DNA of 56,134 bases from positions 1-56,134 of IMG/VR virus record IMGVR_UViG_3300027741_000078; one strand, given 5' to 3'. This stretch comes from a virus. The notes under the pieces are model-generated. The model did not search any database, had not been told where the DNA came from, and worked only from the letters and a program-made list of their open reading frames with translations. Of the stretch, positions 1-56,134 are shown piece after piece; the first letter of the stretch is position 1, and each line of letters starts with the position of its first letter. A program made the position numbers and the translations under genes.

Positions 1-195
1 GTGGCCGGTAAGTCATTCATTATTATTTTGGCGCAAGACGCCACTGGAAGCAGGTCAGTCACTTGGTCAACGGTTTCGTGGCCTTCTGCCACACCGCCTT
101 CGGTTACTCAGACCGCCAGCAGGAAAGACATTTATTCGTTCTTCTCTGACGGAACTAGTTGGTATGGCACCACTATCGGGCAGGCGTATACATAA
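1..195 (+). CDS. Tail-fibre protein, C-terminal fragment (cut by window start)
   Basis: This is the last 64 residues of a tail-fibre protein; the frame is open from base 1 and the true start lies outside the left edge. The translation matches residues 344-407 of the complete fibre encoded at 53348-54571 with one difference (R for K near the end), and the DNA differs at only a few bases. It is therefore the same gene seen a second time because the contig overlaps itself. The stop overlaps the ATG of the following LamG gene as TAATG at 193-197, the same junction as at 54569-54573. It is not an independent gene. Confidence 0.85.
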   Translation: MAGKSFIIILAQDATGSRSVTWSTVSWPSATPPSVTQTASRKDIYSFFSDGTSWYGTTIGQAYT

Positions 196-2258
196 TGTTT
201 GCAGCATCTAAATCAGGTAGATCGGCTGCTGGTGGCGGCGGTACAACGGACCCATATTTTCCGTATGTTCCTTTGCTGTTGGAGACGACCAGCACCAACG
301 GTCAGCAAAACAATACGTTTTTAGATTCCAGCAGCAACACTTTTACCATCACCCGCAACGGAACCCCAACGCAGGGTAGCTCGACTCCGTATTGGCCGAA
401 TGGGCAGTGGAGTAATTATTTTAATGGCAGTAGTAATTTAAGCATAGCAAGTACCGCATCGTTAGCTATGGGTACTAACGATTTCACGATTGAGTTTTGG
501 GTTTATTTGCGCTCTGCAACAAACAACCGAACTCTGGCGTGGCCTGTTGCAGGCAATATATTGATATATTGCGATAACTCTGGTTATTTTGCTTATGCAA
601 GTTACGGCGTTGGGAATGTGTTGGCTAGTTCAATTGTCGCTCCTTTAAATACTTGGACGCACATTGCCATATCAAGAACCGGCACCAACAGCAAAATTTT
701 TGTTAACGGAGCTATAGGCGCTTCAACCAGTTCGGATTCAAATAACTGGGGTCAATCTGTATTTAACATTGGCTCTGACATTGCGGCTAACTTTTTAAAC
801 GGCTATTTATCTAACCTGCGAATTGTAAAAGGTACTGGACTTTATACAACCACATTCACCCCGCCTACGACTCCTCTTACCGCTGTTACCAACACGGTTC
901 TTCTCACCTGCCAGTCAAACCGATTCAAAGACAACAGCGCCTCACCACTTACAATTACGGTAGGTAACGGCACACCCACCGTCCAAGCATTCCAGCCGTT
1001 CTCCCCGGCGGCTGCGTACACCACTGCGCTGTATGGTGGGAGCGGGTATTTTAATGGTAGTGCGGATTATTTGAGTATTACCGATGGCTCTGCCCTGCAA
1101 TTGGGTTCTGGAAATTTTACAATCGAGGGGTGGGTTTATTGTTCGGCAGTTTCAGGAAACAACTCTATATATTCTAGAAATTTGTTCGGGATGATTATTG
1201 GAATTTCTGGAAGTAATTTTACATTTTTTGCATCTTCAAACGGATCAAGTTGGAATCTTGCAAGCGGAATTACTTTCGGGGCAGCAACATCAAACACTTG
1301 GGCTCATTTTGCTGCTGTTCGCAACGGAACAAACATTACCTTATATTTAAACGGCGTTTTGGGTAATACTGTCGCTGTTAGCACAAACGCATTATATGAA
1401 GTAACAGCGCCAACTGTAGGGTATTGGACTAGCGGCGGTGCAAACTGGTACTTAAACGGATACGTTTCCAACCTTCGAGTAGTCAAAGGCACAGCAGTCT
1501 ATACCGGAGCATTCACTCCACCCACGCTCGCACCGTTAACAACCGCAGGATCAACCAGCGCGGCAAGTTACTCAAGCACCACCAACGTAAATACAAGTTT
1601 TGCGGCCTCTAGCACCAGTCTCCTGCTCAACATGGCAAACGCAGGAATCTACGACGCCGCCGCGCAGAACGATGTGACTACGGCGGGGTCTGCGGTAACC
1701 GCTGTGACTCCAGCAAAATGGCCGCCAAGTAGCATGAGCTTTAACGGAAGCAACTCGTATGCTCAGGTTCTTTCAAACCCAGCGTTTACTTTAGGAACAT
1801 CAAACTTTACAATTGAGTTCTGGGTTTACTTTAATAGCGTTGCAGCAGCTCAAACGGTTGTAGGAAGACATATAACAACCGCCGCTGGGGATTGGGCAAT
1901 TTACACTGCGTCAACAGGAAGCCTGAACTATTACCTTAGTTCAAATGGCTCAACTTGGAACCTTGCCAACCAAGTATCAATTGGTAGCATTAGCACCGGG
2001 ACTTGGTATTACGTTGCTCTTGTAAGAAACGGGTCTGTATTTACTCCGTATATAGGAACGACTCCCGGTTCGGCCCCAACAGCGGGGACAACAACAACCA
2101 CATCATCCGCTCTGTTTGCAACCACGCAGGCACTAACTGTTGGCGCAGCCAATAACTCGCTTACATTCCTAAACGGGTATGTGCAGGATTTTCGATTTAC
2201 AGTTGGTGTGGCTCGTTCAATTACCACTGTACCTTCCGCAGCTCTTCCGACGAAATAA
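195..2258 (+). CDS. LamG-domain receptor-binding tail protein, allele A
   Basis: A 687-residue putative adhesin at the virion surface, likely binding host glycans. Three concanavalin A/LamG-like jelly-roll domains follow each other. Each opens with a FNGS motif, a segment of type F-T-I-E-x-W-V-Y and a W-x-H/Y-x-A strand, and the first two close with NGY-(L/V)-SNLR-(I/V)-VKGT followed by a FTPPT linker. The start at 195 was chosen over an upstream ATG at 159 because it forms a TAATG overlap with the fibre gene and gives the N-terminus MFAASKSG shared with the allele at 54571. The ligand-facing parts differ strongly between the alleles while the linkers are nearly identical. The LamG fold assignment is confident; the receptor role is inferred. 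Confidence 0.85.
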   Translation: MFAASKSGRSAAGGGGTTDPYFPYVPLLLETTSTNGQQNNTFLDSSSNTFTITRNGTPTQGSSTPYWPNGQWSNYFNGSSNLSIASTASLAMGTNDFTIEFWVYLRSATNNRTLAWPVAGNILIYCDNSGYFAYASYGVGNVLASSIVAPLNTWTHIAISRTGTNSKIFVNGAIGASTSSDSNNWGQSVFNIGSDIAANFLNGYLSNLRIVKGTGLYTTTFTPPTTPLTAVTNTVLLTCQSNRFKDNSASPLTITVGNGTPTVQAFQPFSPAAAYTTALYGGSGYFNGSADYLSITDGSALQLGSGNFTIEGWVYCSAVSGNNSIYSRNLFGMIIGISGSNFTFFASSNGSSWNLASGITFGAATSNTWAHFAAVRNGTNITLYLNGVLGNTVAVSTNALYEVTAPTVGYWTSGGANWYLNGYVSNLRVVKGTAVYTGAFTPPTLAPLTTAGSTSAASYSSTTNVNTSFAASSTSLLLNMANAGIYDAAAQNDVTTAGSAVTAVTPAKWPPSSMSFNGSNSYAQVLSNPAFTLGTSNFTIEFWVYFNSVAAAQTVVGRHITTAAGDWAIYTASTGSLNYYLSSNGSTWNLANQVSIGSISTGTWYYVALVRNGSVFTPYIGTTPGSAPTAGTTTTTSSALFATTQALTVGAANNSLTFLNGYVQDFRFTVGVARSITTVPSAALPTK

Positions 2259-2260
2259 TC

Positions 2261-2680
2261 ATGCAAATAGCTAACCAAGACCTCATTATCAAGGACCACA
2301 CCGAGTGGTTCCCCAACACATCCTTCGGTGAGCGTGGCCCATCTGTGGAGTGGATCAAGTCCGAGGGCTACTACATCATCTCGGCATGGAAAGACTACGA
2401 CTCCAAGGCCCAAAAGCTAGTACCAGCCGCGCCGCATCTGCATGACGGTATGTGCTGCATCGTGGACGTGGAGCCACTGACCGCTGAAGAACTGCAATCG
2501 CGTGTCGATACTCAGTGGCAAGTGATCCGTACCCAGCGCAACCAGATGCTCAAAGACAGCGACTGGACCCAGCTATCAGACTCGCCGGTTGACAAGGCCG
2601 CATGGGCAACATACCGACAGGCTCTGAGAGACATCACAAAGCAGGCTGATCCCTTTAACATCGTCTGGCCGGCGGTGTAA
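2261..2680 (+). CDS. Phage tail assembly chaperone-like protein
   Basis: 139 residues, starting 2 bases after the LamG stop. The C-terminal half (residues about 90-130) has the pattern RNxxLxxSDWTQLxDxPVDKAAWATYRQALRDI, broken here by x, which is typical of the Phage_tail_APC family. Members of that family sit beside tail-fibre genes and are thought to help fibre folding or attachment. The N-terminal half (IIKDHTEWFPN, FGERGPSVEWI) resembles short proteins found beside fibres in many environmental phages. A role as fibre chaperone for its neighbours is inferred from family and position. Confidence 0.75.
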   Translation: MQIANQDLIIKDHTEWFPNTSFGERGPSVEWIKSEGYYIISAWKDYDSKAQKLVPAAPHLHDGMCCIVDVEPLTAEELQSRVDTQWQVIRTQRNQMLKDSDWTQLSDSPVDKAAWATYRQALRDITKQADPFNIVWPAV

Positions 2681-2682
2681 AC

Positions 2683-4113
2683 ATGGCACAGGCAACCTTC
2701 ACCCCGATCCAGCTCTATTACAGCGCCAACACCGGAGCCACGCCATCAACTTCAAACCTGGCGGCGGGTGAGCTTGCCATTAACACTGCGGACGGGAAGC
2801 TTTTCTATAAGGACAGCTCCGGCAACCTGCAGACGATCGCAACAAAGGCAGCCGCGACAAACCCACTCCCGGTAAACACGGGCGGGACGGGCATCCAGGC
2901 GCTCACACAGGGCGGGATTGCTTACGGTGCGGCTACGACCTACGCCTTCACTGCAATCGGCTCTACGGGCGATCTATTGAGTTCTAACGGTACCGGTGCC
3001 CCGACATGGGTAACCCCGACGAACTTAAATACGGCATCGGCGATCGTCAAGCGGGACTCATCGGGTAACTTTGCCGCTGGGACGATTACCGCATCACTTA
3101 CTGGGACCGCTAGCACGGCGACCAATCTAGCGAACGGCGCATCAGGCTCCATCCCCTATCAAACGGGCGCTGGGGCGACTTCTTTCGTTCCTGCAGGGTC
3201 TAGTGGCACCGTCCTCACAATGTCCTCTGGCGGCGTTCCTACATGGGCCACAGCGGGTACTGCGACCTCGGCATCAAACCTCTCTGGCGGCACTGCTGGG
3301 GCTGTCGTTTATCAGTCTGCACCAAACACGACGGCATTCTTAACTGCAGGTAGCTCTGGCCAAGTTCTGACATTAACGTCGGCGCAGATTCCGGCATGGA
3401 CTACGCCAGGCTCGGTTACTTCGGTGGCCAATCTCTCCGGTGGTGCGGCTAACAAGATCCCATATCAGAGCGGGGCCAGTACAACTACTTTCATTGACGC
3501 CCCGACGGTATCTAGCTACCTCAAATATACCGGCAGCGCGTTTGCCTGGGCCAATCCTGTTACGAGCGTCTCCGCCAGCACAGGGATGAGCTTTACGACA
3601 ATCACCGGCACGGGTAGCGTGGCGATAGACACCACAGTCGTCCCGAGGTTTGCGAATGCAGGCACCTTTACGGCCACCCAGACCTTTAGTGGCTCAAGCA
3701 GCGTCGCATCACTCGCGCTGAACAACGCCCTTGAGACCTGCACCGTTACTGGATCCGCTGCATCTGGCGCCCTTAACATTGACGTCTCCACGCAGTCGGT
3801 GATCTTCTATAACACGGCGACTACTGCTACATGGACGCTTAACTTCCGTGCAAGTAGCGGGACCCCCCTAAGCTCCTTCATGAGTCAGGGGCAGTCGGTT
3901 ACGGTTGCTGTCCTCGTACAGACGGGCGCGGTTACCAACGCCTACAACACTGGCGTGACGATTGATGGCGTTGCTCCTACTGCACTCAAATGGCAGGGCG
4001 GTACGGCTCCTACGACGGGCAACTCAAACAGCATCGACGTCTACACCTACACCATCATCCGCACCGGTCCGTCCTCGTATACGGTGCTGGCTTCACAGAC
4101 GAAGTTTGCCTAA
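2683..4113 (+). CDS. Tail-fibre protein with beaded repeats
   Basis: 476 residues. The N-terminus (LYYSANTGATPSTSNLAAGE, then LAINTADGKLFYKDSSGN) is the attachment head seen in many phage fibres, related to major tropism determinant N-termini. It is followed by Gly/Ser/Thr/Ala-rich repeats containing NTGGTGI and several copies of an IPYQ/VYQS...T-F motif (IPYQTGAGATSF, VYQSAPNTTAF, IPYQSGASTTTF) spaced about 50 residues apart, then a C-terminal beta-rich domain. This layout suggests a trimeric shaft with a distal tip. It starts 2 bases after the preceding gene and has no cysteine-rich or enzymatic motif. Confidence 0.75.
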   Translation: MAQATFTPIQLYYSANTGATPSTSNLAAGELAINTADGKLFYKDSSGNLQTIATKAAATNPLPVNTGGTGIQALTQGGIAYGAATTYAFTAIGSTGDLLSSNGTGAPTWVTPTNLNTASAIVKRDSSGNFAAGTITASLTGTASTATNLANGASGSIPYQTGAGATSFVPAGSSGTVLTMSSGGVPTWATAGTATSASNLSGGTAGAVVYQSAPNTTAFLTAGSSGQVLTLTSAQIPAWTTPGSVTSVANLSGGAANKIPYQSGASTTTFIDAPTVSSYLKYTGSAFAWANPVTSVSASTGMSFTTITGTGSVAIDTTVVPRFANAGTFTATQTFSGSSSVASLALNNALETCTVTGSAASGALNIDVSTQSVIFYNTATTATWTLNFRASSGTPLSSFMSQGQSVTVAVLVQTGAVTNAYNTGVTIDGVAPTALKWQGGTAPTTGNSNSIDVYTYTIIRTGPSSYTVLASQTKFA

Positions 4114-4115
4114 TC

Positions 4116-5351
4116 ATGCCGGTACTTGCCACGATCGGGGCCGCCTCTGCTCGAGGATTCGGTGATTTTTATACAAGTACCAGTATATCTGGCAACGGCT
4201 GGATGGCGCGGATTGGTGCCTATACAAAGCCGATGACGAGCGATTCAAATAACAATATTTACGTTGGAAGCCCTGCTGGCTTGATCATGAAGGTTGGACC
4301 AGACGGGACTCTCGCCTGGCAAAAGAACGTCAATCAATCCGGAACAAACGTATCTGTTGAGCGCAATCAGGCAACAGGATCGGGCTTGGTTGGATTAGTA
4401 GGGTCTTCGGGAAGTGGGGCCATCAACAATAAGCCTTCGATTGAAGTGTTAGATAGCAACGGCAATGTTTATTATTCTGTATATTACAACGCGGCTAACT
4501 TTATTAACAGCATAACCGCGTCTGACGTTGGCAGCATCTACTTCTCAGGCACATTTGCGTCCGGATTTGCCGCCTACTTCAAGCTTTACGGAACAACAAT
4601 AGTCGCGAAGAAGTCGTATAGCAATACAAGCGGACAGCCTCGATTTGTTGGCGGTGGAAGTAACGACACCGCTTACATGGGCGACACTTTTAACGGGGTT
4701 GTTCCTAGCGTAGCCAAGGTGGATTCAAACCTTGCGTTGTTATGGAGGTCGGGAAGCTCTTCGCTTACAAGGGTCACGCAGGTAGTTGAGTCAAACGGTT
4801 TTGTTTATGCGGTTGGCACCACCTCTGCCGTTGTTAAATTAAACGCTACCACCGGAGCCTTTGTATGGGCCAAAACGCTATCCTCATCGTTTTTTACCTG
4901 CCTTGCGGTTGACAGCTCTGACAACATTTACGCCGGCGGGTATGACTTTACTAACAAACTTGGAATACTATTAAAGATTGACAATAACGGCAATCTAATC
5001 TGGCAAAGAAATTTTCTCTTGAGCCCCATAAATGCGGCTTATTACACGACGGTGTCTGCTATAACCGTAAACAATACAAATAATTCTATCTGTGTGCAGG
5101 TAACTCCTTCAGGGGCTGGCACCGCAACGTCAATGTTATTTTCTGTGCCGAACAACGGAACGCCAACCGGAACATACACTGTTGGCGGCTCTACTCTTGT
5201 CTACGCAATCAATTCAGGGACTCTTTCTTCGGCAACATATACTTTTAGCTCGTTGTCAACTTCTTTGGGCTCACAAACTTACGCAGAAGTTAGCTTGCCT
5301 GTATCTGCCTCTACCGCCTCAACCACTTACGACCTTATCTCGGTCCCCTAA
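4116..5351 (+). CDS. Beta-propeller-like tail protein (PQQ/SBBP-type repeats)
   Basis: 411 residues. Repeats of the form (N)IYVGSP..GLIMKVGPDGTLAWQKN, split here, recur as VYAVGTTSAVVKLNATTGAF with VWAKTL, and as NIYAGGYDF with ILLKIDNNGNLIWQRN. This is the blade pattern of PQQ-like or SBBP beta-propellers. The start at 4116 (MPVLATIGAASARGFG) was chosen because it lies 2 bases after the preceding stop; the frame is open upstream only as a shadow of that gene. Its place at the end of the fibre block suggests a virion surface or host-binding role, which is inference. The gene looks more AT-rich than its neighbours, as if exchanged recently. Confidence 0.7.
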   Translation: MPVLATIGAASARGFGDFYTSTSISGNGWMARIGAYTKPMTSDSNNNIYVGSPAGLIMKVGPDGTLAWQKNVNQSGTNVSVERNQATGSGLVGLVGSSGSGAINNKPSIEVLDSNGNVYYSVYYNAANFINSITASDVGSIYFSGTFASGFAAYFKLYGTTIVAKKSYSNTSGQPRFVGGGSNDTAYMGDTFNGVVPSVAKVDSNLALLWRSGSSSLTRVTQVVESNGFVYAVGTTSAVVKLNATTGAFVWAKTLSSSFFTCLAVDSSDNIYAGGYDFTNKLGILLKIDNNGNLIWQRNFLLSPINAAYYTTVSAITVNNTNNSICVQVTPSGAGTATSMLFSVPNNGTPTGTYTVGGSTLVYAINSGTLSSATYTFSSLSTSLGSQTYAEVSLPVSASTASTTYDLISVP

Positions 5352-5363
5352 TGGAGTCACATC

Positions 5364-5537
5364 ATGAGCAAGAAATGGATTCAGGAGGCTATTAAGAAGC
5401 CTGGCGCACTGCGAGAGGAACTCGGCGTCAAAGAGGGTAAGAAGATCCCGATGAAGAAGCTAGATAAAGCCGCTCACGCCTCTGGTAAACTTGGGCAGCG
5501 CGCACGACTAGCGAAAACCCTTCGAGGCTTTGACTGA
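5364..5537 (+). CDS. Small basic protein of unknown function (KKPGALR motif)
   Basis: 57 residues, lysine-rich: begins MSKKWIQEAIKKPGALREEL and continues with a conserved-looking core of the type GVKEGKKIP, ending RLAKTLRGFD. Small proteins with this KPGALR start recur in tailed phages next to structural genes, but I know no function. The start ATG is 12 bases after the preceding stop. The stop TGA (5535-5537) lies just before the ATG at 5539. It could bind DNA or a capsid protein given its charge; this is not supported further. Confidence 0.65.
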   Translation: MSKKWIQEAIKKPGALREELGVKEGKKIPMKKLDKAAHASGKLGQRARLAKTLRGFD

Positions 5538-5538
5538 C

Positions 5539-5763
5539 ATGAATGAAATCCAGATGGGGTTCAACATTCTCGTTGGATTGGTCGCCTTCTTTGGTGGCTG
5601 GATCTTGAACAATATCTCCAAGACGCTTGACCGGTTAGATCAAGACGTTCGGAATATGCCCAAGACCTATGTCATTAAAGAGGACTACCGCCGAGATATT
5701 GACGAACTGAAGTCCATCTGCCATCAAATTTTTGATCGTCTTGAGAGCAAGGCGGACAAGTAA
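5539..5763 (+). CDS. Small single-TM protein upstream of endolysin, holin- or spanin-like candidate
   Basis: 74 residues with one hydrophobic segment at about 8-24 (FNILVGLVAFFGGWIL), then a charged helical tail with heptad-like spacing and a KEDYRRDIDELKSI motif. The topology (short N-terminus, one TM, soluble coiled coil) fits an i-spanin, a regulatory holin partner or an XhlA-type membrane protein. The position directly before the lysozyme supports a lysis role. The ATG at 5539 is preferred; an in-frame TTG three codons earlier overlaps the upstream gene. Function is inferred from topology and context only. Confidence 0.6.
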   Translation: MNEIQMGFNILVGLVAFFGGWILNNISKTLDRLDQDVRNMPKTYVIKEDYRRDIDELKSICHQIFDRLESKADK

Positions 5764-5778
5764 AGAGGAGGCTAGATC

Positions 5779-6291
5779 ATGGCCGACTTTGACGCTGCAT
5801 TTGAGAAGATGATCGTTGACGAGGGGGGCTACGTCCTCCACACTGTTCCCGGTGACACGGGCGGGATGACCTATGCTGGAATTGCTAGAAATAAAAACCC
5901 CAACTGGCCGGGGTGGAATCTTATTGACCACGAAGAAAAGGGCCCTCTCCTTACTGAGATGGTGCGTAAGTTTTATAAGGCTGAGTTTTGGGACCGTATC
6001 CGAGGGGATGAGCTTACGAACCAGCCTATTGCGGAATCGATCTTCAACTTCGGCGTCAACACCGGAATCAACGTCGCGGTAAAGCTGGCGCAGTTAATTG
6101 TCGGCGTGACCCCTGATGGCGCTGTTGGACCTAAGACGGTTGAAAAGTTTAATTCTGTTGAGGCGGACTCGTTCAAGAAGGCCTATGCGTTAGCCAAGAT
6201 CGCCCGCTACGCCGACATCTGCAATAAGAACAAAACCCAGTCTAAATTTTTGCTTGGCTGGATCAACAGAACGCTGAGGGGCCTAAAGTAA
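5779..6291 (+). CDS. Endolysin, GH108 family N-acetylmuramidase
   Basis: 170 residues. It hydrolyses the peptidoglycan glycan chain at the end of infection. The N-terminus has the GH108 signature with catalytic Glu15 in the DEGGY motif, followed by V-P-G-D-T-G-G-M-T-Y-A-G-I. Residues about 90-170 match the family's peptidoglycan-binding part (FNFGVNTG, GVTPDGAVGPKTV). There is no signal peptide, so release needs a holin; a three-TM holin gene follows at 6809 after an inserted HNH gene. A clear ribosome binding site (AGAGGAGG) precedes the ATG. The stop overlaps the next ATG (TAATG, 6289-6293). Confidence 0.92.
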   Translation: MADFDAAFEKMIVDEGGYVLHTVPGDTGGMTYAGIARNKNPNWPGWNLIDHEEKGPLLTEMVRKFYKAEFWDRIRGDELTNQPIAESIFNFGVNTGINVAVKLAQLIVGVTPDGAVGPKTVEKFNSVEADSFKKAYALAKIARYADICNKNKTQSKFLLGWINRTLRGLK

Positions 6292-6809
6292 TGGACTTGA
6301 CCCAAGAGTACATTAAAGAATGTTTGGATTACAATCCAGAAACTGGAACATTTTTTTGGAGGATTCGTCCAATCAGTCATTTCAAAGACTTGCGCCGCCA
6401 ACGAATTTTCAACAGGGTTTACGCTGGAAAGCCTTGTGGTCATTTGAACAAACAAGGATATTTGGTTATTCGGGTTGCAGGATTTCTTTGCAAAGCCCAC
6501 AGGTTGGCGTGGTTATATGTTCATGGCGCCATGCCAAAAGAATTGCTTGACCACATCAATCGAAACCGATCTGATAACAGAATTTGCAATTTACGAGAGG
6601 CTTCACCCACGTTAAACGCCCAAAATGCTTCAATTCGTGTCGATAATACAAGCGGCGTTACGGGCGTGTCTTGGCATAAAGTTACAAACAAATGGACTGT
6701 TCAAATTAGCAAACGGGGAAAACCGACACATATTGGTGTTTTTGCAACTATTGAAGAAGCAAAAATAGCAAGACTGCAGGCTGAACTTGCGCGAATGGAG
6801 ATCGCCTGA
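6291..6809 (+). CDS. HNH homing endonuclease with AP2 DNA-binding domain
   Basis: 172 residues. Residues about 60-100 form an HNH_3-type nuclease (KAHRLAWLYVHGAMP, then LLDHINRNRSDNRICNL, with the DHIN and N-x-x-N-L residues). Residues about 118-160 form an AP2-like DNA-binding domain (SGVTGVSWHKVTNKWTVQI). This domain pair is typical of mobile freestanding homing endonucleases in phages. The gene sits between the endolysin and the holin, overlapping both by one base, and is flanked by direct repeats ATGGACTT at 6291-6298 and 6809-6816. It looks more AT-rich than the surrounding genes. It is likely a selfish element not needed for lysis. Confidence 0.88.
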   Translation: MDLTQEYIKECLDYNPETGTFFWRIRPISHFKDLRRQRIFNRVYAGKPCGHLNKQGYLVIRVAGFLCKAHRLAWLYVHGAMPKELLDHINRNRSDNRICNLREASPTLNAQNASIRVDNTSGVTGVSWHKVTNKWTVQISKRGKPTHIGVFATIEEAKIARLQAELARMEIA

Positions 6810-11326: not shown

Positions 11327-11565
11327 TGGCCGTTTTATATGACCCGCGCTATCATACTTTCGTGTCTTGGGCCGACCTGATGGTGGAGCAATTCGCCAGT
11401 AATCAGCTTGAGATACCGAACGAGAAGACCGATTGGAAGGCGTGGGGTCAAGGCCTCAAGTCTATCGGGGTCTTCTCTAACGAAGCCGTTCCCGATCCTG
11501 ATCAGTATGGAAACTGGTCGGACTGGGCCTCTGCACTTATCAACGCGATGAATGGAAATGTCTGA
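11326..11565 (+). CDS. Small conserved virion-operon protein, unknown function
   Basis: 79 residues, starting MAVLYDPRYHTFVSWADLMV with several tryptophans (W-A-D, D-W-K-A-W-G, N-W-S-D-W-A). Its start overlaps the stop of the large tail protein by one base and its end overlaps the glycosyltransferase start. The aromatic, acidic composition and fixed position suggest a small tail accessory protein. I recognise no named family. Confidence 0.65.
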   Translation: MAVLYDPRYHTFVSWADLMVEQFASNQLEIPNEKTDWKAWGQGLKSIGVFSNEAVPDPDQYGNWSDWASALINAMNGNV

Positions 11566-12502
11566 CACAATTTTTGTTGGTATCTCATCCTACCGTGACC
11601 CGCTCCTAGCCCACACCATCAAAAGCGCCCTAGACAACGCCAAGTACCCTGAGCAGATTAGGTTCGGCGTTGTTGAGCAGGAGATCCCAGAGCGGCGGAT
11701 TGTTCCTGAATCATTTTGTGGCGCCAACATCACCCATATAGCGATTGACCCCAAGGTATCTCGAGGTGCCTGCTGGGCGAGGTCGTTGCAGATGTCCTTG
11801 TTTGACGATGAGGACTGGGTCTTCCAGATTGACTCTCACACCGTCTTTGATTACGGCTGGGACGAGTATTTTGTGGAGATGAGCAAGATACTGATGATGA
11901 CCAACCCGAAGGTCGTTATCTCGGGCTATCCAAGGGGCTTCATATTTAAGAACGGCAGGTCTGAGAAGGTCCGCGATGACGGGAAGGTGATCGTACACAC
12001 CTGCACAGAGGACACGAGCTTTGAGCATGGGCCGGTTCTCAACATTCCGCCAAAGGGTATTGACTCCGAGGTCCCGGTGAAGGGCTTTTATATTGGCGCC
12101 CAGACCATGTTTGCTCCGGGTCGTTTTATCTATGAGGTCCCTTATGACCCCTATCTTTACTTTAATGGCGAGGAGCACTCCTTAGCGGTGCGGGCGTTTA
12201 CGTTTGGGTGGGACATTTACCACTGCCCAGGTATGCCGGTATATCACCTTTACGAGACTAGTGACACGGACAGCTACCGCAAAAAGCACTGGGAAGACAA
12301 AGAGAACGAAGATCGTAAGGTAAAATGGGGGAATATGGACGTCAGATCTAAGACGCGCCTCGCTGAGATGCTTTTATACGGCAAGGACGTTGGCAGGATC
12401 GGCCTTGGTAATGTCAGGACTCTGCAGGAGTTTGCAGAGTTCTCTGGTATTGACTACCCCAATAAGTTCATCCACGAAAAGGCTCGAAAGGGAATTTGGT
12501 GA
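11558..12502 (+). CDS. GT60-like glycosyltransferase (GlcNAc transferase family)
   Basis: 314 residues from ATG 11558 (an in-frame ATG at 11552 would add two). The N-terminus FVGISSYRDPLLAHTIKSAL, the block RGACWARSLQMSLFDDEDW and the metal-binding DSH motif at 92-94 match the GT-A-fold family that includes GlcNAc transferases acting on Skp1 hydroxyproline (GT60). A late motif FNGEEHSLAVRAFTFGWDIY is the usual acceptor-side signature with an E-E-H motif. The gene lies in the virion operon 3 bases before the giant serine-rich protein, so that protein is the obvious candidate acceptor. Family assignment is fairly confident; donor sugar and acceptor are inferred. Confidence 0.78.
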   Translation: MSDTIFVGISSYRDPLLAHTIKSALDNAKYPEQIRFGVVEQEIPERRIVPESFCGANITHIAIDPKVSRGACWARSLQMSLFDDEDWVFQIDSHTVFDYGWDEYFVEMSKILMMTNPKVVISGYPRGFIFKNGRSEKVRDDGKVIVHTCTEDTSFEHGPVLNIPPKGIDSEVPVKGFYIGAQTMFAPGRFIYEVPYDPYLYFNGEEHSLAVRAFTFGWDIYHCPGMPVYHLYETSDTDSYRKKHWEDKENEDRKVKWGNMDVRSKTRLAEMLLYGKDVGRIGLGNVRTLQEFAEFSGIDYPNKFIHEKARKGIW

Positions 12503-12505
12503 TAT

Positions 12506-15500
12506 ATGGCTAATGACCTCACTACGCTAAAAGGAGAACTTTATTTAATAAACAAAGCGTCTAGTAATGGTTACGGCAATCGTGCTATGGGGCCGGAGTC
12601 CCATATCAATAATATAGCTAATATTCTATATAACGATTATGGTGTAAAGTCTCTAAGGGACATTCAGCCTTATTGGGTTCCTGCAACGCCAAGAATTGAC
12701 GGCAGGTACGAAAAGCGCCCCACCGGAACGGGGTACTGGAAGCTTACCCCTGCATGGCCCGGAAGCAAAATAAATACAAAAGAATGGGTTGACACATATA
12801 CATCCGTGTACATCCCCCCGGTTCCGGCCGTCCCTGCACATTGGTCGGACACGCAAGCGGTAAACAAGGCAAACGGCAAGGTAATCCCAATAGGGCAAAT
12901 TGGCTCTAGCGGAGAGGGAAAGGGCTATACAAACTACAAGCTGATGCCGATCAAGCAGGCGGACGGATCAACTGTCTTCGCGCCAGGACAAGAATGGCAT
13001 GACTCTAGTGACTTTAACAAGATCGCGCCGTTTCTATTTGTTGGTTTGGCGCTTACCGGGATTGGCGGGGCTCTCGGTGCAGTGGTTGGTTTAGAGGGGG
13101 CCGCAGCTAGTGCATTTGGAACGGCTGCAATTTCAACAGCAATCTCCGCCGCTGCAGGAAAAATAGGGGACGTCGGTGATGTTCTTGAGTCATTCGCGAA
13201 GGGTTTTGCAGGCAACTATCTAGGCGACCTTGTTGGCAAAGAAATAAGTTCCGTTATTGATTCAACAATCGGGAAAGGGCAGGTATCAGACGTTATTAAA
13301 AACGTCGTCACCGGAGGGGCAAAGAGCGCCGTTCAAGCCGTCGTTGATGGGAAAAATTTAGATCAAATCAAAAACGCCTTTGAAAAAGGAGGTGTTGCGG
13401 CGGCAATTCCTTCAATACTAGGCAAGGTCCCTGGTTACAATGACCTGTCTGCTGGATCGCAAAGCATTATTTCTAGCGCATTAACAGGCAAGTTAAATGG
13501 CAAAACTCCTACCGCCGGGCTAATTCAGTCTGCAATTACCGCGACTGGGGTTGTTGCAGACACCGCCAAGTCGTTAAATCTTGATCCTGCACAAGAAAAG
13601 CTGCTGGTATCGGGGCTAACGAATACTGCTATGGCGCTGGCGACAAATAAGCCGATTGATGAAGCGCTTGCAAAAACCTTAATACAGTCGGGCCAGACAG
13701 CATTTAATGATTTGGGGAAAAGCTACGCTGGAAAGCTAACCGCAGGGTTAACTGATAGCGTTAAAGCGCAAGTAAAGACGCCGCAGGATTTGGTCACGTT
13801 GGCGCAGCAGTCTTCAGACGGGGTAGACCAACTCCTCGAGACAATTAACGCGGCAGACAAACGGCAGAACGCTATTGAGACTCGGCTTGCCGCGATTAAA
13901 TCTGAAATCAATCCGCAGCTTGAATCTTATCAAAAGGCTGACGCCGAAAGAAACAAACAGTTAACAAATTATTACGACATGATCGGCAGCGGATACTCTG
14001 TCGGCGCAATCAATGATCAAATTGACAAGTTAAATTCAGCAACAGAAAAGTTAAATATTGAATCCACCGCTTTGCAAAATAAGTGGTCAAAGTATCAAGA
14101 CGAGACGAAGAGCCTAAATGATGAGTTAAGCCAGCTCAAGGTCTCGATTCCCAAAAATATAGAGTCCTTCAACCAATTCAAACAAAACCTGCAGGCGGCC
14201 GGCACGACGCTAGACGCATTTAATAACGACTTAAAGAGCAAAACCGAGTCTTTAATTGTTAGCAAAGTCGCGCCAGAATTCGACGCAAACGCCTACGCCA
14301 AGCTGCACAACATTAGCCCGTCTGAGGCCTATAGCAACTGGATAGGCACGGGGATGACGGCCCCTATCAATGACGCCGAGGTTAAGGCGATGGCCGCCGC
14401 CGCACCTCAGAGTGTTATTGAGGGGCTTGCCGATGCGGGAGACGTCAAGGAGGGTTTGGTTGACTCCCACCTGGCGTATGCCATTGCAGCAAGCGCCAAA
14501 GACCAACAGGACAAGGCTCAGGAGGCTATCCAGGCCAATATGCAGGGATACGCCAAGGCCGCTTACGAGGCAGCGCAGACCGGCAGCAAGACCTTTAAGT
14601 TTACGGGCGAGGATGGCGTCCAGTACACGCTAAACACGCCGAAAGAGCTTTTGCCGCGTACCTATCAAGATGCGCTGCAGACGGCTATCAACAACGGTGA
14701 TAAGACCTTCAAGTATACCGGCGAGGATGGCAAAGAGTACACGGTCCCGATTGCAAACAACCTGCTGCCCAGAACCTACCAAGACGCGATGCAGGCGGCG
14801 AAGCAGCGCGGGGACAATACCTTTCAGTACCTCGGCGAAGACGGAAAACAATACACGGTTGCGGTTCCGCAGGACGTGCAGAAGACGTCGATCGTAACCA
14901 AGGCTGCTCCTGCAATTCCAACCGTGTTTGGTTCGTGGAATAAGCCCACCCTAGATCAGTACGAGATACCTCCTGGCGTCAAGCTCGCCACCCCGCAGCA
15001 GGTTTACAACGATCGTACCGCGACCCTGATGAAGCTTGAGAACGGAAGCTACGTCTGGATCCAGGTTCAGAGCGATCGCCTTCGAGATCAGAAATACGGC
15101 ATAACGGATCCGGATTGGGTTAAGGCAAACGATCCCACGGCGTACATAGCAACAATTAAGAACATCCCAACGGATCAGTTACCGGCGTCCCTGCAGAAGA
15201 CTCAGCCTGGCTACGTTAAAGCCGCAGAGGACTTAATTGGTAAGGCTAAAAACATCGCGCCTAGCGCCGTCATGGATACGGTCTCCATGTTCCTTAATGG
15301 TGCGGCGGATGCGGCAAACATTTTTGGTGCGGTTTCTTCGGTTATTTCCGGCACCAAAACAGAGAACACTGCACTGGGTCAGCTTGCCAAAAATTTGACT
15401 GGCCTAAGCGATAAGGCCATGAGCGATGACCTCAAGTCTGCCATTGCCGATAATGTGCAGAGGTGGAACGACTCTCGAGGGCTTGGTGGCAGCGTTAGCG

Positions 15501-18500
15501 CAATCGCCCAGAGCATTTGGGAGAACCCGATCGCAACACTTGGGTTCCAGGTTGGATCCGAGGTCGTTAGCGAGCTGCTCACAGGCGGCACGGCGGGAGT
15601 GGGCGCGAAGTTGGCTGGCAAAGCCGCAAGGGGCGCCTACGTTGCTGATGAGTTGGCGGCGAAGGTTGCATCAAGAACCGGGATCGTACTGTCCGAGGCG
15701 CCGGAGATTATTGCCGGTACCGCAGGGGCTTTTGATTCAACTTACAACGATGTATACGCCACCGCAATAAAGAATGGCAAAACAGAGGCGCAGGCGGCCC
15801 AGATGGCTGCGGATGCTGCGTATAAGGTTGCCGGCGCAAGCTTGGTAACGGGGCTGATTGTCAATGGCAAGAACCCTAACGAACTATCCAATCTTATGTT
15901 TGGCGCCAAACCGTCTGCCGCCAAGCAAAACTTTCTAGATGCAACAACGGGGATTTCAAAGGCTTACGCTAATCAGGTTAAGAAGACCGGATTAGAGGAG
16001 GCCAAAGATGAATTTGTTGAGCAGTTAATACCAAATGCGGTTCGAGATATTTACAAGGGCGCCAATTTTGGGCTGTCAGCGATTGATCCTGGAAAGAGTT
16101 TAACTGAGGCCGCTTATGCGGGGATTATCGGAGGGCTTACTGGATCAACAATCGCCGCTGGTGTTGTGCCCGCTCGGAGCATTGATGATGTAAACAGAAA
16201 CATTACGGCACTAACCTCTCCTCAAATGCTGACGGCAATTGAAAAGGTTCAGCAAATAAAAGACAATCCCAGGTCTTATACCTTGGCTGAATTGTCAAAG
16301 CAAGAAGGCGAAATTATTTCTGCCGCTCACAAAGTTGGAATTTATGACCCAGAAGAAGTAGCCCGCATCGTAATCAGCGCATACCCTAGCGTAAACACAA
16401 AGCAATTAGATACCCTGATAGAGGCAGACGCAAAAGCTTCAATCAGGCAATCTGTAATTGACGAAAACCCGGCTGTTAATAATAGCGAACTAGACAGCAT
16501 TACGTCTGAAAATTACAACAGCGTCTCTGCTTATGTTTACGAAAAAAGGTCCGTTTCTGCGGCGGCTTCCTCAATGGACCCGTCGTCGGCTGCCGCCTAT
16601 ATTAAATCGTTTAGGTCTGCAGAGGCTTCAAATTCCAATTCCCTTGCTTCTTACGGAAAGCAATTAGAGGCGTCGTCTCCAGGGGCGTCAAAATCTCTTT
16701 CTTTATCCGCAAACCAAGCTAAAGTATTTTCAATAAGCCAGACCCAGTCATTATCTAAATCAACATCCGTTTCTTTATCGCAATCAAAATACCTCTCTTC
16801 TTCGTACTCAGTCTCTTATTCCAGGTCAGAGTCAATTGTCTTCTCAATACACGACTCTATTGCATCATCAAGCGCATGGAACTCCTCTCATGCCGCTTAT
16901 AACTGGTCAGTGTCTCAATCCACTTCGTCTTCGTTAAGCGCTTCAAGATCAATAAAGGCGTCGCAATCATCTTCGTTAAGCACTTATAAATCAGAGCAAT
17001 TATCGGCGTCGTCATCACTAAGCCTTTACAAAAAAGGATTGGCATCGCAGACGGTATCAAGCTCGCAATCAAGTTCTATAGCGAGCAGCGCCACTTCTCA
17101 GCCAATCAGCTCGTCTTTAAGCGAATTGCGATCTTCAGCTATATCTCAGTCAATATCAAAATCTGAATCTAAAGCTTCTTATCTTTCTAGCTACTCCGCG
17201 TCAACGTCATCTTCTACGTCGTCAAGAGCGGCGGAAATATCTGCCTCTAGGTCTAAATCCATAGAAGAATCTGCCGCTAAAAGCTCATATTTTTTGTCAT
17301 CTTCTTTGTCTGACTCTACTTCTCGAAGCGCTTCAAGATCCAATTTAATTTCGCAGTCAACATCTAAATCAACAATACAGTCGGTATCTAACAGCGCTTA
17401 CCTGTCTTCGTCTTACTTTGCTGCGTCTTCTACGTCAGTATCCAAATCTGAGGCGGCGGCTCAATCAATTTCAATTTCCAAGTCTGAGGCCGCTTCAAAG
17501 GCAAGCGCTTATTATTCTTCTTCTGCAACTTCTGCGTCTGCTGTTAGTGCTTCAAGATCAACTTTTATATCTGAGTCCAAGTCAAAGTCACAATCCGAAT
17601 ACCTTGCAAGAAGCTCCGCTTACTCATCCTCGTTGCTTTCATCCAGTGTTTCTAGATCTGAATATGCATCGCAAGCGCTAGAGAAATCTAAATCAAACTC
17701 GGCTTCTCAAGCTGCATATTTGTCTTCTTCTTATGCTGCGGCGTCATCTTCTTCTTTGTCTAGGTCAAACTCAAACTTAAATTCGTCGTCAATTTCTAAG
17801 TCTGAATCTACTTCAAGGGCGGCTTCTTATTATTCATCTTCTTCCGCGTCTGCCTCTGCCGTTAGCTCCTCAAAGTTAGCTTTTATATCTGAGTCAAAAG
17901 CAAAGTCAGAGTCGGAGTATCTTTCAAGAAGCGCCTCTTATTCTTCCTCATTGGTATCTTTTAACGCCTCTAAGTCAGCATATACATCGCAGTCTTTAGA
18001 GAAGTCAATATCGGACTCTGCTTTCCAAAAATCATATTTACTGTCCTCTTACGGCGCCGCATCTTCTTCTTCTACATCCAGATCAATCGCCGCGTCAACC
18101 TCTGCATCGCAGTCAAAAGTCGAGGCCACCTCCAAGGCTGTATCTTATTACGCTTCTTCATCGGCATCCGCTTCTTCTGATCTGGCATCAAAATCAAAGT
18201 CAATTTCTGAATCAAAGGCATCCAGTTCGGCCCAAGAGGCCATAAAGCTATCCGAAAGAATCGTATCTTATAGTATCTCGCAATCTTTATACTCGTCTTA
18301 TAGACTCTCCGTTTCAAATTCAAAAGCCGGGATAGTTACGCCAGTGAGTCCATCTCAGACCACACCGGCAAGCTCGTCTCCGAATACATCAGGCACAGCT
18401 AACGCCTCAAGCTTATCCGCAAGCGCCAAAATATCGATTAGCAAAAGTATATTAAACTCTACAAACGAAAGCATATTTATTAGCAACAGCCTTTTAGCCT

Positions 18501-51341: not shown

Positions 51342-53348
51342 ATGGCAAATGTAACTATTACCCAGCTTCCAGCGGCCCAACCCCTAACCGGCACGGAGCT
51401 GGTGCCTGTCGTCCAGAACGGGCAGACGGTTCGCACGACTACCGGTGCGATTGGCGGTGGCGGTGGCGGCAGTGGGTCTGTTACATCTGTCAACGTCTCT
51501 GGTGGCACTACGGGTTTGACGACGACTGGCGGGCCGATTACTACCTCTGGGACTATCACACTAGGTGGGACACTTAATGTTAGCAACGGCGGGACTGGCG
51601 GCACGACTGCTCAACAGGCTCGGGCAAATGTTCTCCCGAGTTATACGGGAAATGCATCGTATGTACTTCGTGTCAATGCCGGCGCTACAGATGTTGAGTG
51701 GTCCGCTTCCGGTGGTGGGGGTAGTGGAAGCGTTGTTCAGGTCAATACGGGCACTGGATTAACCGGCGGCCCGATCACAACTTCCGGGACGATTGCGATT
51801 GCCACGACCGATGTAACGGCTGGTAGTTATTCAAATCCCAGTTTTACGGTTAACGCGCAGGGGCAGATCACCGCGGCGTCCTCTGGCTCGATTCCTGTTA
51901 CAAGCGTATCCGGCACCGCGAACGAGATTACTTCGTCTGGTGGCGCGACTCCTACGCTGTCCTTGCCTAGTGCGCTTACCTTTACCAACAAAACGGTCAC
52001 GGGTGGATCATTTACTGGCGGGACGATTAACAACACGGTGATTGGCGGGACGACTGCGGTTGCTGGCACGTTTAGCACGATTAATGCCGCGAGCGGGAAC
52101 ATTACTACCACCCCGACTAGCGTTAACAATATTGTTAATAAGGCGTATGCGGACGCGGTTGCATCGGGATTGAGCTTTCATGCAAATTGTGACCTAGCGA
52201 CTGCCGCGGCCCTTCCTACTTGTACCTATAGCAACGGAAGCTCTGGCGTTGGGGCGACGTTAACCGCTACCGCTAACGGGCTTCTAACCGTTGACTCTGT
52301 GAATGTGGTGGCCGGCAATCGCGTGCTGGTGAAGAACCAGGTAAATCAGGCGCAGAACGGCATCTATACGGTCACTCAGATTGGCGACGGATCAACCCCG
52401 TTCATTCTGACTCGTGCGACGGACTACAACACCCCTGGCGCGACCTACTTAAACGTGGACGCCGGCGACTTTACGCTGATCCTGACCGGTGCAACGAACG
52501 CAAGCACCTCGTGGGTACAGACGACGCTGCAGCCGATTACGATTGGCACGACGAATCTTGTCTTTGTGCAGTTTGGCGCGGGGACGGTCGTCTACTCAAA
52601 TGGAACGGGTCTAAGCCTCTCCCCGACCAACCAATTCAGCATCACAAATACCGGCGTATCTTCTGGAACTTACGGCTCTGGCTCTCTGGTTCCTCAGATC
52701 GCCGTAAACGCTCAGGGTCAGATTACTGGTGCGATCAATACCAGCATTGCGATTAGCGGCAGCCAGGTTACTTCGGGTACTGTGGCGATCGCTCAGGGCG
52801 GCACCGGTCAGACATCGCAGGAGTCTGGATTTAATGCGCTGTCTCCGATTACTACGCTCGGCGATATTATTGTCGGGACGGGAACAAACGCCGCGGGAAG
52901 GCTTGGTATTGGCTCCAACGGTCAGGTGTTGACGGTTCAGAGTGGAACTGCGACATGGGCCGCTCCAACGGGTGGCGGTGGTACTCCGGGTGGAAGTCCA
53001 AATACAATCCAATATAACAATGGTGGTGTATTTGGCGGCCAATCCAACTACACGACTGACGGGGCGAATGTACAATTAGGTTCTCAAGGGATATTTAAGT
53101 TTGCCGACCTTGACTCGAGTAATTTTGTTGGATTTAGGGCCCCTGCGACTGTTCCTACTAATGTGACGTGGACGCTCCCCTCGACGGACGGGACTGCGTA
53201 TCAGGTGTTGGCTACGAATGGCTCTGGTTCTCTGGTCTGGGTCACACAAAGCGGCGGTGGTGGCGGTGGTGGATCTCCCAATTTGGACGGCGGGATACCT
53301 AGCTCAACCTACGGCGCGATTACACCAATTAACGGGGGGACACCGTAA
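51342..53348 (+). CDS. Tail-fibre protein
   Basis: 668 residues. The N-terminus ANVTITQLPAAQPLTGTELV is a fibre attachment motif; it is followed by Gly/Ser/Thr repeats (NGGTGGTTAQQARANVLP, AQGGTGQTSQESGFNAL) and a trimeric beta-helix-like shaft. The NKAYADAVASGLSFHANCDL and ATAAALPTCTYSNGS segments are a known fibre module in many phages. It ends at the start of the next fibre gene with a one-base overlap. Likely part of the receptor-binding complex. Confidence 0.75.
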   Translation: MANVTITQLPAAQPLTGTELVPVVQNGQTVRTTTGAIGGGGGGSGSVTSVNVSGGTTGLTTTGGPITTSGTITLGGTLNVSNGGTGGTTAQQARANVLPSYTGNASYVLRVNAGATDVEWSASGGGGSGSVVQVNTGTGLTGGPITTSGTIAIATTDVTAGSYSNPSFTVNAQGQITAASSGSIPVTSVSGTANEITSSGGATPTLSLPSALTFTNKTVTGGSFTGGTINNTVIGGTTAVAGTFSTINAASGNITTTPTSVNNIVNKAYADAVASGLSFHANCDLATAAALPTCTYSNGSSGVGATLTATANGLLTVDSVNVVAGNRVLVKNQVNQAQNGIYTVTQIGDGSTPFILTRATDYNTPGATYLNVDAGDFTLILTGATNASTSWVQTTLQPITIGTTNLVFVQFGAGTVVYSNGTGLSLSPTNQFSITNTGVSSGTYGSGSLVPQIAVNAQGQITGAINTSIAISGSQVTSGTVAIAQGGTGQTSQESGFNALSPITTLGDIIVGTGTNAAGRLGIGSNGQVLTVQSGTATWAAPTGGGGTPGGSPNTIQYNNGGVFGGQSNYTTDGANVQLGSQGIFKFADLDSSNFVGFRAPATVPTNVTWTLPSTDGTAYQVLATNGSGSLVWVTQSGGGGGGGSPNLDGGIPSSTYGAITPINGGTP

Positions 53349-54571
53349 TGCCTGTTCAGATACAACTTAGAAACGGTACTGCGGCTCAGTGGACCGCGGC
53401 CAACCCCGTTCTTGCTGGTGGCGAGCTTGGCGCGGAGACGGACACTAGCAAGTTCAAGATCGGCAACGGCTCCACTGCCTGGAACAGCCTTGCGTACTCT
53501 TTGGGTGTCGTCTCAAAGGGCGCCTATGCCGGCGGGACTCAATACTATGTAAACGATATTGTTACCTCTGGCGGCAATAGCTACATCTGTATTCTGAATT
53601 CTATTGGCAACGCGCCACCAAACGCGACGTACTGGAGCCTGCTTGCTCAGGCCGGAACGAACGGCACAAACGGCACGAACGGTACCAACGGCACGAACGG
53701 CACATCGTTTACATGGCAGGGGACGTGGTCTTCCGGCACGACCTATACCGCTAACCAGACCGTTTCTTACGGTGGCAGTAGCTATATTGCTATCGCAACC
53801 AGCACAGGCGCCAACCCCTCGAGCTCTCCGGGATCATGGTCTTTGATGGCTCAGGCTGGAACCGGTACCGTAAACGGCCCAGGAAGCTCTGTAAGCGGGA
53901 ATCTGGTCTCGTGGAATGGTACGGGCGGGACGACGATCGCGGACTCTGGTAAGGCTGCCCCTTCTGGCGTCATTGTTGGCACGACCGATACCCAGACGCT
54001 GACGAACAAGACTCTGACGCTGCCGGTTATTGCGTCTATATCTAATACCGGGACAATCACAATCCCGACTGGTACGGATACTTTGGTCGGGCGGGCAACG
54101 ACAGATACCTTAACTAACAAGACTCTGACGCTGCCTGTAATTGCATCTATCTCTAATAGCGGAACAATAACGCTTCCGACGGGTACAGACACTTTGGTGG
54201 GACGGGCAACTACAGATACCCTTACCAACAAGACGCTGACCAACCCGACGGTAACGAACTACATTGAGACGGCGTATACAGCCAACACAGGCACTGCGAT
54301 TACTATTACTTTGACCAACGGTACGGTTCAGATTTTGACGTTGACGGGTAACGCAACGATCACAATGCCCACTGCTGTGGCCGGTAAGTCATTCATTATT
54401 ATTTTGGCGCAAGACGCCACTGGAAGCAGGTCAGTCACTTGGTCAACGGTTTCGTGGCCTTCTGCCACACCGCCTTCGGTTACTCAGACCGCCAGCAAGA
54501 AAGACATCTATTCGTTTTTTTCTGACGGAACTAGTTGGTATGGCACCACTATCGGGCAGGCGTATACATAA
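53348..54571 (+). CDS. Tail-fibre protein with Mtd-like head and repeats
   Basis: 407 residues. The N-terminus PVQIQLRNGTAAQWTAANPV with a following G-E-L-G-A-E-T-D-T-S-K-F-K-I-G-N-G is the major tropism determinant-type head. A CBM5/12-like motif (YVNDIVTSGGNSYICIL, then A-T-Y-W-S-L-L-A-Q-A-G) occurs twice. A short collagen-like G-T-N stretch and a 111-base repeat block follow. The C-terminal domain is the one repeated at 1-195. It joins the LamG gene by TAATG. Probably a trimeric fibre carrying or folding beside the LamG adhesin. Confidence 0.8.
   Translation: MPVQIQLRNGTAAQWTAANPVLAGGELGAETDTSKFKIGNGSTAWNSLAYSLGVVSKGAYAGGTQYYVNDIVTSGGNSYICILNSIGNAPPNATYWSLLAQAGTNGTNGTNGTNGTNGTSFTWQGTWSSGTTYTANQTVSYGGSSYIAIATSTGANPSSSPGSWSLMAQAGTGTVNGPGSSVSGNLVSWNGTGGTTIADSGKAAPSGVIVGTTDTQTLTNKTLTLPVIASISNTGTITIPTGTDTLVGRATTDTLTNKTLTLPVIASISNSGTITLPTGTDTLVGRATTDTLTNKTLTNPTVTNYIETAYTANTGTAITITLTNGTVQILTLTGNATITMPTAVAGKSFIIILAQDATGSRSVTWSTVSWPSATPPSVTQTASKKDIYSFFSDGTSWYGTTIGQAYT
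53654..53698 (+). repeat. Five 9-base GGCACGAAC-like tandem repeats
   Basis: Five G-T-N codon triplets (units differ by one or two bases) in the fibre gene form a collagen-like linker. Such repeats vary easily in copy number. Confidence 0.85.
53981..54243 (+). repeat. 111-base tandem repeats in fibre gene
   Basis: Two full and one partial copies of a 37-codon unit (TDTLTNKTLTLPVIASIS followed by GTITIPTGTDTLVGRAT). AAGACTCTGACGCTGCC begins at 54008 and 54119, and the third, diverging copy at 54230. DNA identity is high, so copy number could vary. Confidence 0.85.
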
Positions 54572-56134
54572 TGTTTGCAGCATCTAAATCTGGTAAAGCT
54601 GCGGCTGCGGCTGTCACAACGGATCAATATTTCCCGTACGTCCCCTTGCTGTTGGAGACGACCAGCACGAACGGGCAGCAGAACAACACGTTCTTAGATT
54701 CCAGCAGCAACACATTCACCATCACCCGCAACGGAACCCCAACGCAGGGCAGCTCGACTCCGTATTGGCCGAATGGGCAGTGGAGTAATTATTTTAATGG
54801 TAGTACGGATCGTTTTTCTTTAGGAACTAACGCAGCACTCAATCCCGGAACAGGAAATTTTACTTTTGAATGTTGGATCTATTCCACGGGCACAACCACA
54901 AATTCTTCTTTGTTTGAAGGTGCTACCGGCGGACTTTCTGTCACATTTAATGGTTCAAATCAACTTTCTGTTGCGCAATCAGGAGTAGGGTACTTAATTA
55001 CAGATCCTGCGGCGTTCGCCCTAGCAAATCAGTGGGTTCACATTGCCGTAGTGCGGTCTGGAACGAATTTGTCTTTGTATAAAAACGGTACAAGGGTTGC
55101 CACTTCTGCGGCTAATTCAACTTCTTTTGTCACTGTAACCCAAAACTATATTGCGTTTAACGGGGGTTCCGTTTATTTCCCCGGTTACATTTCAAATCTG
55201 CGTTTGGCTATTGGGGCAGTAGTTTACGATCCAACACTAACCACCCTCACCGTTCCAACCGCGCCTTTGACTTCAACCACTGGCGGAACAACCCCCCCAA
55301 CAGGCACTCAGACAAAACTTCTTATTTGCCAATCCAACCGATTTATTGACAACGCATCTTCCCCAAATACAATTACATTGGCTGGCACCCCACAAGTCCA
55401 AGCATTCCAGCCGTTTTCCCCGTCGGCATCGTACACCACTGCGCTGTATGGCGGGGGCGGGTACTTTAATGGTAGTACGGATTATCTAACAACTCCAAGC
55501 AACTCCGCGTTTTACATATCATCCGGGCAATTTACTATTGAGGCTTGGATTTATAAAACGGCAACGGGCAACTTTACAATTATTGCTCAGTCGCAGAATA
55601 ACGGTACGCCGTATGCCGGATGGACTTTAAGAATTAGTTCTACCGGCAATCTTGTTTTTGAAGGAACAAACGGCGCTCTTGTAACTGGCGCAACGGCCTT
55701 GCCAAACAACACATGGATTCACGTTGCTGCCGTTCGAGTTACAAGCGCAATTGTTCTTTATGTTAATGGCAAGTCCGACAACACCGGAACACCTGCAATC
55801 ACAGATTATGCAGGAACCCTAACGGTAGGAAATTACACCTTTCCTGTGGCCGGAAGATACTTTAGCGGCTACATAAGTAATTTACGGTTTGTAAAGGGCG
55901 CAGCAGTCTACACCGGCAACTTCACCCCACCCACGCTTGCACCGTTAACCACTTTGGGTACAACTAGCGCGGCAAGTTATACAGACACCACTAACGTCAA
56001 CACAACCTTTACATCGGGCACCAGCCTCCTGCTCAACATGACCAACGCAGGAATCTACGACGCCGCCGCGCAGAACGATATTATTACGGTTGGTGAAGTT
56101 CAGACCAGCACAACCCCGACGCCTAAATTTGGCG
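54377..56134 (+). repeat. Contig end overlapping window start (terminal redundancy of assembly)
   Basis: 54377-54571 corresponds to 1-195 with a few substitutions. Homology then continues in blocks (about 240-430, 960-1060 and 1470-1680 of the left end) separated by divergent blocks. It shows a circular or permuted genome of about 54.4 kb assembled from more than one strain. Confidence 0.8.
54571..56134 (+). CDS. LamG receptor-binding tail protein, allele B (cut by window end)
   Basis: At least 521 residues, open to the right edge, no stop seen. The N-terminus MFAASKSGKAAAAAVTTDQY and the linkers match the protein at 195-2258, but the three domain interiors differ (first repeat YFNGSTDRFSLGTNAALNPG against the YFNGSSNLSIASTASLAMGT of the other; both keep F-T-x-E-x-W and the N-L-R-x-x-x-G-x-x-V/L-Y end). 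It is therefore a second allele of the same gene, reached because the contig passes its own start. The C-terminal part would continue at about base 1730 of the window. Confidence 0.82.
   Translation, partial: MFAASKSGKAAAAAVTTDQYFPYVPLLLETTSTNGQQNNTFLDSSSNTFTITRNGTPTQGSSTPYWPNGQWSNYFNGSTDRFSLGTNAALNPGTGNFTFECWIYSTGTTTNSSLFEGATGGLSVTFNGSNQLSVAQSGVGYLITDPAAFALANQWVHIAVVRSGTNLSLYKNGTRVATSAANSTSFVTVTQNYIAFNGGSVYFPGYISNLRLAIGAVVYDPTLTTLTVPTAPLTSTTGGTTPPTGTQTKLLICQSNRFIDNASSPNTITLAGTPQVQAFQPFSPSASYTTALYGGGGYFNGSTDYLTTPSNSAFYISSGQFTIEAWIYKTATGNFTIIAQSQNNGTPYAGWTLRISSTGNLVFEGTNGALVTGATALPNNTWIHVAAVRVTSAIVLYVNGKSDNTGTPAITDYAGTLTVGNYTFPVAGRYFSGYISNLRFVKGAAVYTGNFTPPTLAPLTTLGTTSAASYTDTTNVNTTFTSGTSLLLNMTNAGIYDAAAQNDIITVGEVQTSTTPTPKFG

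Follow-up and report, generated by a model that had tools for sequence, protein, structure and literature searches.

Two versions of one LamG locus at the ends of a phage contig and lobe-by-lobe mosaicism among its relatives

In the distal tail fibre and adhesin of T-even phages (gp37/gp38), recombination at conserved motifs swaps the variable segments that determine specificity, which are loops between glycine-rich motifs. The LamG locus presented here is similar in that conserved motifs appear to serve as recombination sites for variable segments of specificity, but folds and phages are unrelated, and whole LamG lobes are concerned instead of loops. Metaviromic islands of marine phages are likewise comparable, since host-recognition genes (tail fibre, lectin-like, C1q) vary there among near-identical coexisting phages (Mizuno et al. 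2014, PMC3909814). These islands were defined by under-recruitment of reads, whereas the variation described here is known from contigs and resolved to single LamG lobes. For cryoconite phages, near-identical cores with an interchangeable pool of variants, including tail fibre and C1q, and an independent shuffling of modules have been described (Bellas et al. 2020, PMC7468147). The shuffling described there concerns genes or large domains, whereas the lobes studied here assort nearly independently within one gene and some of them change position. Domain mosaicism of phage receptor-binding proteins has been reported (Smug et al. 2023, PMC10684548), with a main text in which LamG, laminin, concanavalin and lectin do not occur; the repeated lobe array with position-specific linkers differs in layout from the cases of that study. 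The closest homologue among named phage records is the ConA-like protein of phage DSL-LC04 (OR003939.1, WJZ48124.1), with 38.7% identity over 97% of allele A, but its LamG part lies inside one larger gene (4098 nt) and the set of lobes is not the same.

Mosaicism of LamG lobes is a strong example of the already known mosaicism of receptor-binding proteins. Added here are the resolution at the level of lobes, a repeated LamG array near linkage equilibrium, moves between positions, and forms with three or five lobes. No study of comparable LamG arrays turned up in a literature search of partial coverage.

The window, that is the whole stretch of DNA analysed, comprises 56,134 nt of the IMG/VR record IMGVR_UViG_3300027741_000078. 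Taken as a whole, it is very probably the near-whole genome of a tailed, presumably freshwater phage that opens at one LamG locus, with two haplotypes of this locus at its ends and lobes exchanged as cassettes.

One LamG locus in two versions

The end of the fibre gene is present twice in the window (1-195 and 54377-54571, 98% identical, the first 121 bases exactly), and the match extends at 96% over 1-231 and 54377-54607. Further end-to-end matches follow in conserved order: 225-432 with 54598-54805 (89%), 969-1070 with 55384-55485 (87%), 1449-1601 with 55858-56010 (73%), and 1612-1683 with 56018-56089 (92%). The coordinates of the features are collected in Table 1. Exactly shared bases followed by divergence are what a fork in the assembly graph would leave. 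The sample would then have held two haplotypes with a common fibre end and different LamG genes, and the assembly would have begun in haplotype A and, after one turn of the genome, have ended in haplotype B. That both alleles were present in one sample is probable rather than observed, as it is read from a single consensus contig. According to long-read work, assemblies of viral short reads break up in microdiverse phages and lack such islands (PMC6487183). The exact pattern of the fibre-stop/LamG-start junction had no match among the viral contigs searched, and a third allele from this population was therefore not recovered.

Table 1. Coordinates of the LamG locus and its neighbours in the window
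Feature	Position	Strand	Remarks
3' end of Mtd_N fibre gene, second (haplotype A) copy at left contig end	1..195	+	first 121 nt = 54377-54497
LamG gene, allele A	195..2258	+	687 aa, three LamG lobes
N-terminal linker of A (TFLDSSSNTFTITRNGTPTQGSSTPYWPNGQWSNYF)	315..422	+	nearly same DNA as B: 96% nt, 100% aa
Lobe A1	408..860	+	nearest relative L006 lobe 1 (0.91 aa), neighbours unrelated; shared block ~260-1065
Linker 1 of A (..CQSNRFKDNS..PTVQAFQPFSP..YTTALYGG)	861..1037	+	
Lobe A2	1038..1517	+	nearest relative L007 lobe 4/5 (0.96 aa), neighbours unrelated; shared block ~985-1525
Linker 2 of A (..TSAASYSSTTNVNTSF..NAGIYDAAAQND..)	1518..1727	+	L010 begins inside
Lobe A3	1728..2234	+	relatives L005 position 3/3 (0.90), L006 2/3 (0.73), L007 1/5 (0.72); block shared with L005 ~1500 to gene end
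Tail (fibre) assembly chaperone PF16778	2261..2680	+	adjoins LamG gene in relatives
Upstream tail-fibre gene	51342..53348	+	
Fibre gene with Mtd_N (PF18454) and CBM_5_12 domains	53348..54571	+	
LamG gene, allele B	54571..56134	+	521 aa, cut by contig end, two lobes seen
Lobe B1	54781..55242	+	nearest relative L086 lobe 2/4 (0.95 aa), next lobe unrelated; shared block ~54750-55465
Lobe B2	55456..55926	+	best match among 567 lobes 0.44, none close

Among 90 loci of relatives with both flanks, one LamG gene was found between fibre C-terminus and chaperone in 89 (about 69 distinct contigs), none in one, and two in no case. The relative L087 has flanks 91-98% identical on both sides of a LamG region of 3.6 kb which is unrelated, has no nucleotide match and contains one LamG gene; near-identical flanks enclose a different module in this close relative. 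Collinearity with the window was seen in MW202545.1, a complete circular genome whose homologues of 51342-53348 and 2683-4113 lie side by side, so that it joins both ends. Because of the single LamG gene per locus and this collinearity, the window most likely represents an almost complete genome in circularly permuted form that opens at the LamG gene.

A true tandem duplication, with both LamG genes in a row and the copy of the fibre end between them, has only a small probability. More distant relatives (L015 and L042) do have contigs with two LamG genes, and in several alleles a single gene contains two similar lobes; however, the counts at this place and the single gene of L087 make a tandem copy in this genome unlikely, and the duplication would need to start midway through the fibre gene, at the very point where the contig starts. 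Slightly less probable still is a chimera, in which reads of two phage species were joined and one end is foreign. The window is a single consensus contig which IMG/VR classes as linear, as a chimera might be, but the fibre end agrees on both sides, the gene order at both ends is that of the relatives, and the left end is backed from position 1540 by L010, which is 100% identical to 1540-5841 (4302 nt) and, starting inside linker 2, confirms the end with A3. The two contig ends are accordingly best read as alternative versions of one LamG locus, as had been proposed in an earlier note on this DNA together with the near-identity of the fibre flanks.

Both LamG open frames start with MFAASKSG, and the linkers PTVQAFQPFSP..YTTALYGG, the motif FTPPT and NAGIYDAAAQND are common to A and B. 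The Laminin_G_3 profile (PF13385, Pfam cut-off 27.6 bits) is exceeded by both alleles, with 147.7 bits in three stretches of A and 125.1 bits in two stretches of B. In the interiors of the lobes, protein identity between A and B is 33% for lobe 1 and 42% for lobe 2. At identical residues, identity of third codon positions is 0.95 in the fibre end, drops to 0.67 in the first 40 LamG residues, that is just past the LamG start codon, and is 0.89 in the N-terminal linker, 0.42-0.50 in the lobes, and 0.54 and 0.64 in the two inner linkers. Together with the preceding lobe exits, the inner linkers are 69% and 77% identical in nucleotides. From these third positions, set against those of the fibre end, it follows that the inner linkers are kept as protein but were not recently shared as DNA. 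Thus, the conserved linker and FTPPT motifs and the strongly different interiors described in the earlier note were recovered, while its “near-identical linkers” apply to the N-terminal linker only. Its exchange of LamG cassettes holds among the relatives; a recent swap of lobes between A and B does not agree with the age of the inner linkers. Apart from the recently shared N-terminal linker, A and B are mosaic genes that differ as a whole, and the exchange of lobes, although real, cannot be deduced from this pair.

The LamG gene is located in a tail-fibre module, with the Mtd_N and CBM_5_12 fibre upstream and the chaperone downstream, which is the place of a phage tail receptor-binding protein. 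An AlphaFold model of the protein (mean pLDDT 71, pTM 0.44) gave Foldseek matches to laminin LG, neurexin LNS and pentraxins; a sequence search for solved structures returned none. Based on its place and the lectin-like fold, the gene probably encodes a tail adhesin, consisting of an N-terminal anchor followed by three LamG lobes (three or five in relatives) on conserved linkers. Such an adhesin may bind sugars or glycans, and a change of lobes may alter the host range.

Assortment of lobes among relatives

The search with a lobe profile provided 567 usable lobes from 181 distinct alleles. Pairwise identity of the lobe interiors is bimodal, with modes at 0.25-0.30 and 0.75-0.90. Lobes A1, A2, A3 and B1 each have a relative at 0.90-0.96 (in L006, L007, L005 and L086, respectively) and unrelated neighbours wherever these can be compared, which is the pattern of a domain-shuffled receptor-binding protein, a close domain among otherwise unrelated ones. 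With the largest cluster left out, 378 shared pairs were obtained, in which 395 of 441 neighbours (~90%) are unrelated and 44 are shared; in 92 of these pairs the lobe's position differs whichever end the count starts from. In addition, 33 nt of linker 2 of A were found exactly in two other contigs carrying different alleles.

Linkage was assessed with the 61 three-lobe alleles (1830 pairs). One pair has both lobes 1 and 2 in common (0.7 expected), 10 pairs have lobes 2 and 3 (5.6 expected) and 32 pairs lobes 1 and 3 (17.3 expected), and rank correlations range from 0.03 to 0.10. Lobes 1-3 are therefore close to linkage equilibrium, and since lobes 1 and 3 as well as 2 and 3 are co-shared about 1.8 times as often as by chance, linkage is weak but not nil.

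It is very improbable that lobes between conserved linkers merely diverged by point mutation under diversifying selection, in the absence of any exchange. The preservation of linkers at the protein level and the many synonymous changes in the inner linkers of A and B are as expected of old linkers under purifying selection, but the identity of lobes would not be bimodal, nearly identical lobes (synonymous sites included) would not stand between unrelated neighbours, adjacent lobes would not be nearly unlinked, and lobes would not change position. As a full account, point mutation is refuted by the mosaic pairs.

Two further observations concern the lobe set. The largest cluster (50 lobes) occupies the last slot in most cases, 40 of them at position 3/3; it resembles a default terminal lobe and is missing from allele A. 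Two similar lobes (0.58-0.82) within one gene occur in L027, L105, L106, L122, L141, L142, L151, L152, L170 and L286, either by duplication or by transfer between slots.

Exchange unit and possible routes of exchange

In same-position shares, the synonymous signal fades inside the left linker (48-72 codons from the interior) and runs through the whole right linker up to the next lobe. In different-position shares, it stops at the left lobe edge (8 pairs on this side) and about 30 codons past the lobe interior on the right. Together with the mapped blocks in Table 1, this indicates that what is exchanged is usually one lobe and the linker that follows it, with a limit near the GYFNGS lobe entrance. 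These limits are approximate, being taken from the four blocks in the window and an averaged profile, as change-point mapping over all pairs is noisy for less alike lobes. With increasing identity of the chaperone gene from 60-80% to 85-95%, lobe sharing rises from ~4-7% to 16%; due to this weak rise, the pool of lobes is seen to span the family. Three expectations of the earlier note have to be adjusted accordingly. Exchange is not confined to the population, the pool being wider. Breakpoints in linkers apply to the left limit of same-position shares, which falls within the left linker, while the unit as such begins near the lobe entrance and includes the downstream linker. Finally, homology of linkers alone leaves unexplained the lobes that moved between non-equivalent positions.

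We propose that co-infecting phages trade lobes in cassette form, in most cases one lobe plus the linker after it, through ordinary homologous and partly short-homology recombination at conserved lobe entrances and linkers, that now and then a lobe lands at another position, and that the variety would be kept by selection for new specificities for surface glycans. The recombination machinery can only be presumed: RusA, endonuclease VII and DnaB-like genes are present in the window, and no annealing recombinase of the Red/Erf kind was identified among the part of its genes that was searched. As potential lobe donors, cellular genomes yielded distant LamG proteins only, the best with 36% identity over most of the query.

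A dedicated diversification system, either a diversity-generating retroelement or shufflon-type inversion, would be suggested by the Mtd_N domain (PF18454) of the fibre and by a fast-varying gene in a tail-fibre module. The 56-kb window, which may lack a short part of the genome, has no match to RVT_1, as would mark such a retroelement. As for a shufflon, no match to Resolvase (serine recombinase) was found in the window and no inverted repeats in the LamG gene at the settings used. Nor did the lobe profile match anywhere in the window outside the two end genes, where a silent store of lobes would have to lie. Moreover, the lobes differ by insertions and deletions at 33-42% identity, unlike the outcome of adenine-directed substitution. 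Such a system has hardly any probability left, and since neither reverse transcriptase nor invertase nor silent lobe store was found in the window, recombination between phages combined with selection is the likeliest route.

A broader reading, to which we give slightly less than an even chance, is that a large family of aquatic phages draws on a shared deck of LamG lobes, from which each slot of a single adhesin gene is filled almost independently. Lobes would also switch slots, and the gene would switch between three and five lobes; the lobe with its downstream linker and short entrances similar in DNA would be an evolved exchange cassette, and specificity would be combinatorial. With lobes near linkage equilibrium over 61 three-lobe alleles, the LamG gene represents an unusually clean natural combinatorial library, with which one can ask whether each lobe sets specificity by itself, how frequently phages recombine in the wild, and how much DNA similarity exchange needs. 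It also provides a warning that “linear” phage contigs may be whole genomes opened at a polymorphic adhesin.

Other features of the window

In the family, contig ends were considered as a general sign of mixed alleles and rejected, as the LamG side is not enriched (18 within 2 kb versus 22 on the other side). A second variable module lies near the LamG gene, where a PQQ_2 beta-propeller-like gene (3990-5351) has 41% protein identity to its L087 counterpart between neighbours at 95-98%. The HNH+AP2 endonuclease gene at 6291-6809 is missing from L087, in which the flanks (97-98%) abut, and looks like a clean insertion of a homing endonuclease. Repeats comprise a tandem 111-nt repeat (83%) of TDTLTNKTLTLPVI-type units in the fibre gene (54002-54223), two 298-nt direct repeats (71%) at 17471-18086 within a gene of 2343 aa (12506-19537), and a 43-nt direct repeat (91%) at 31143-31185 and 34015-34057, AGGGTTTCCCCTAGTGAAGAAAGTTGAAAAAAGTTCACACAAG, possibly a promoter or regulatory site. 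Auxiliary genes at 11552-12502, 26739-27509 and 34702-35532 encode a GlcNAc glycosyltransferase (PF11397), an FkbM methyltransferase and a PAPS reductase-like protein, respectively.
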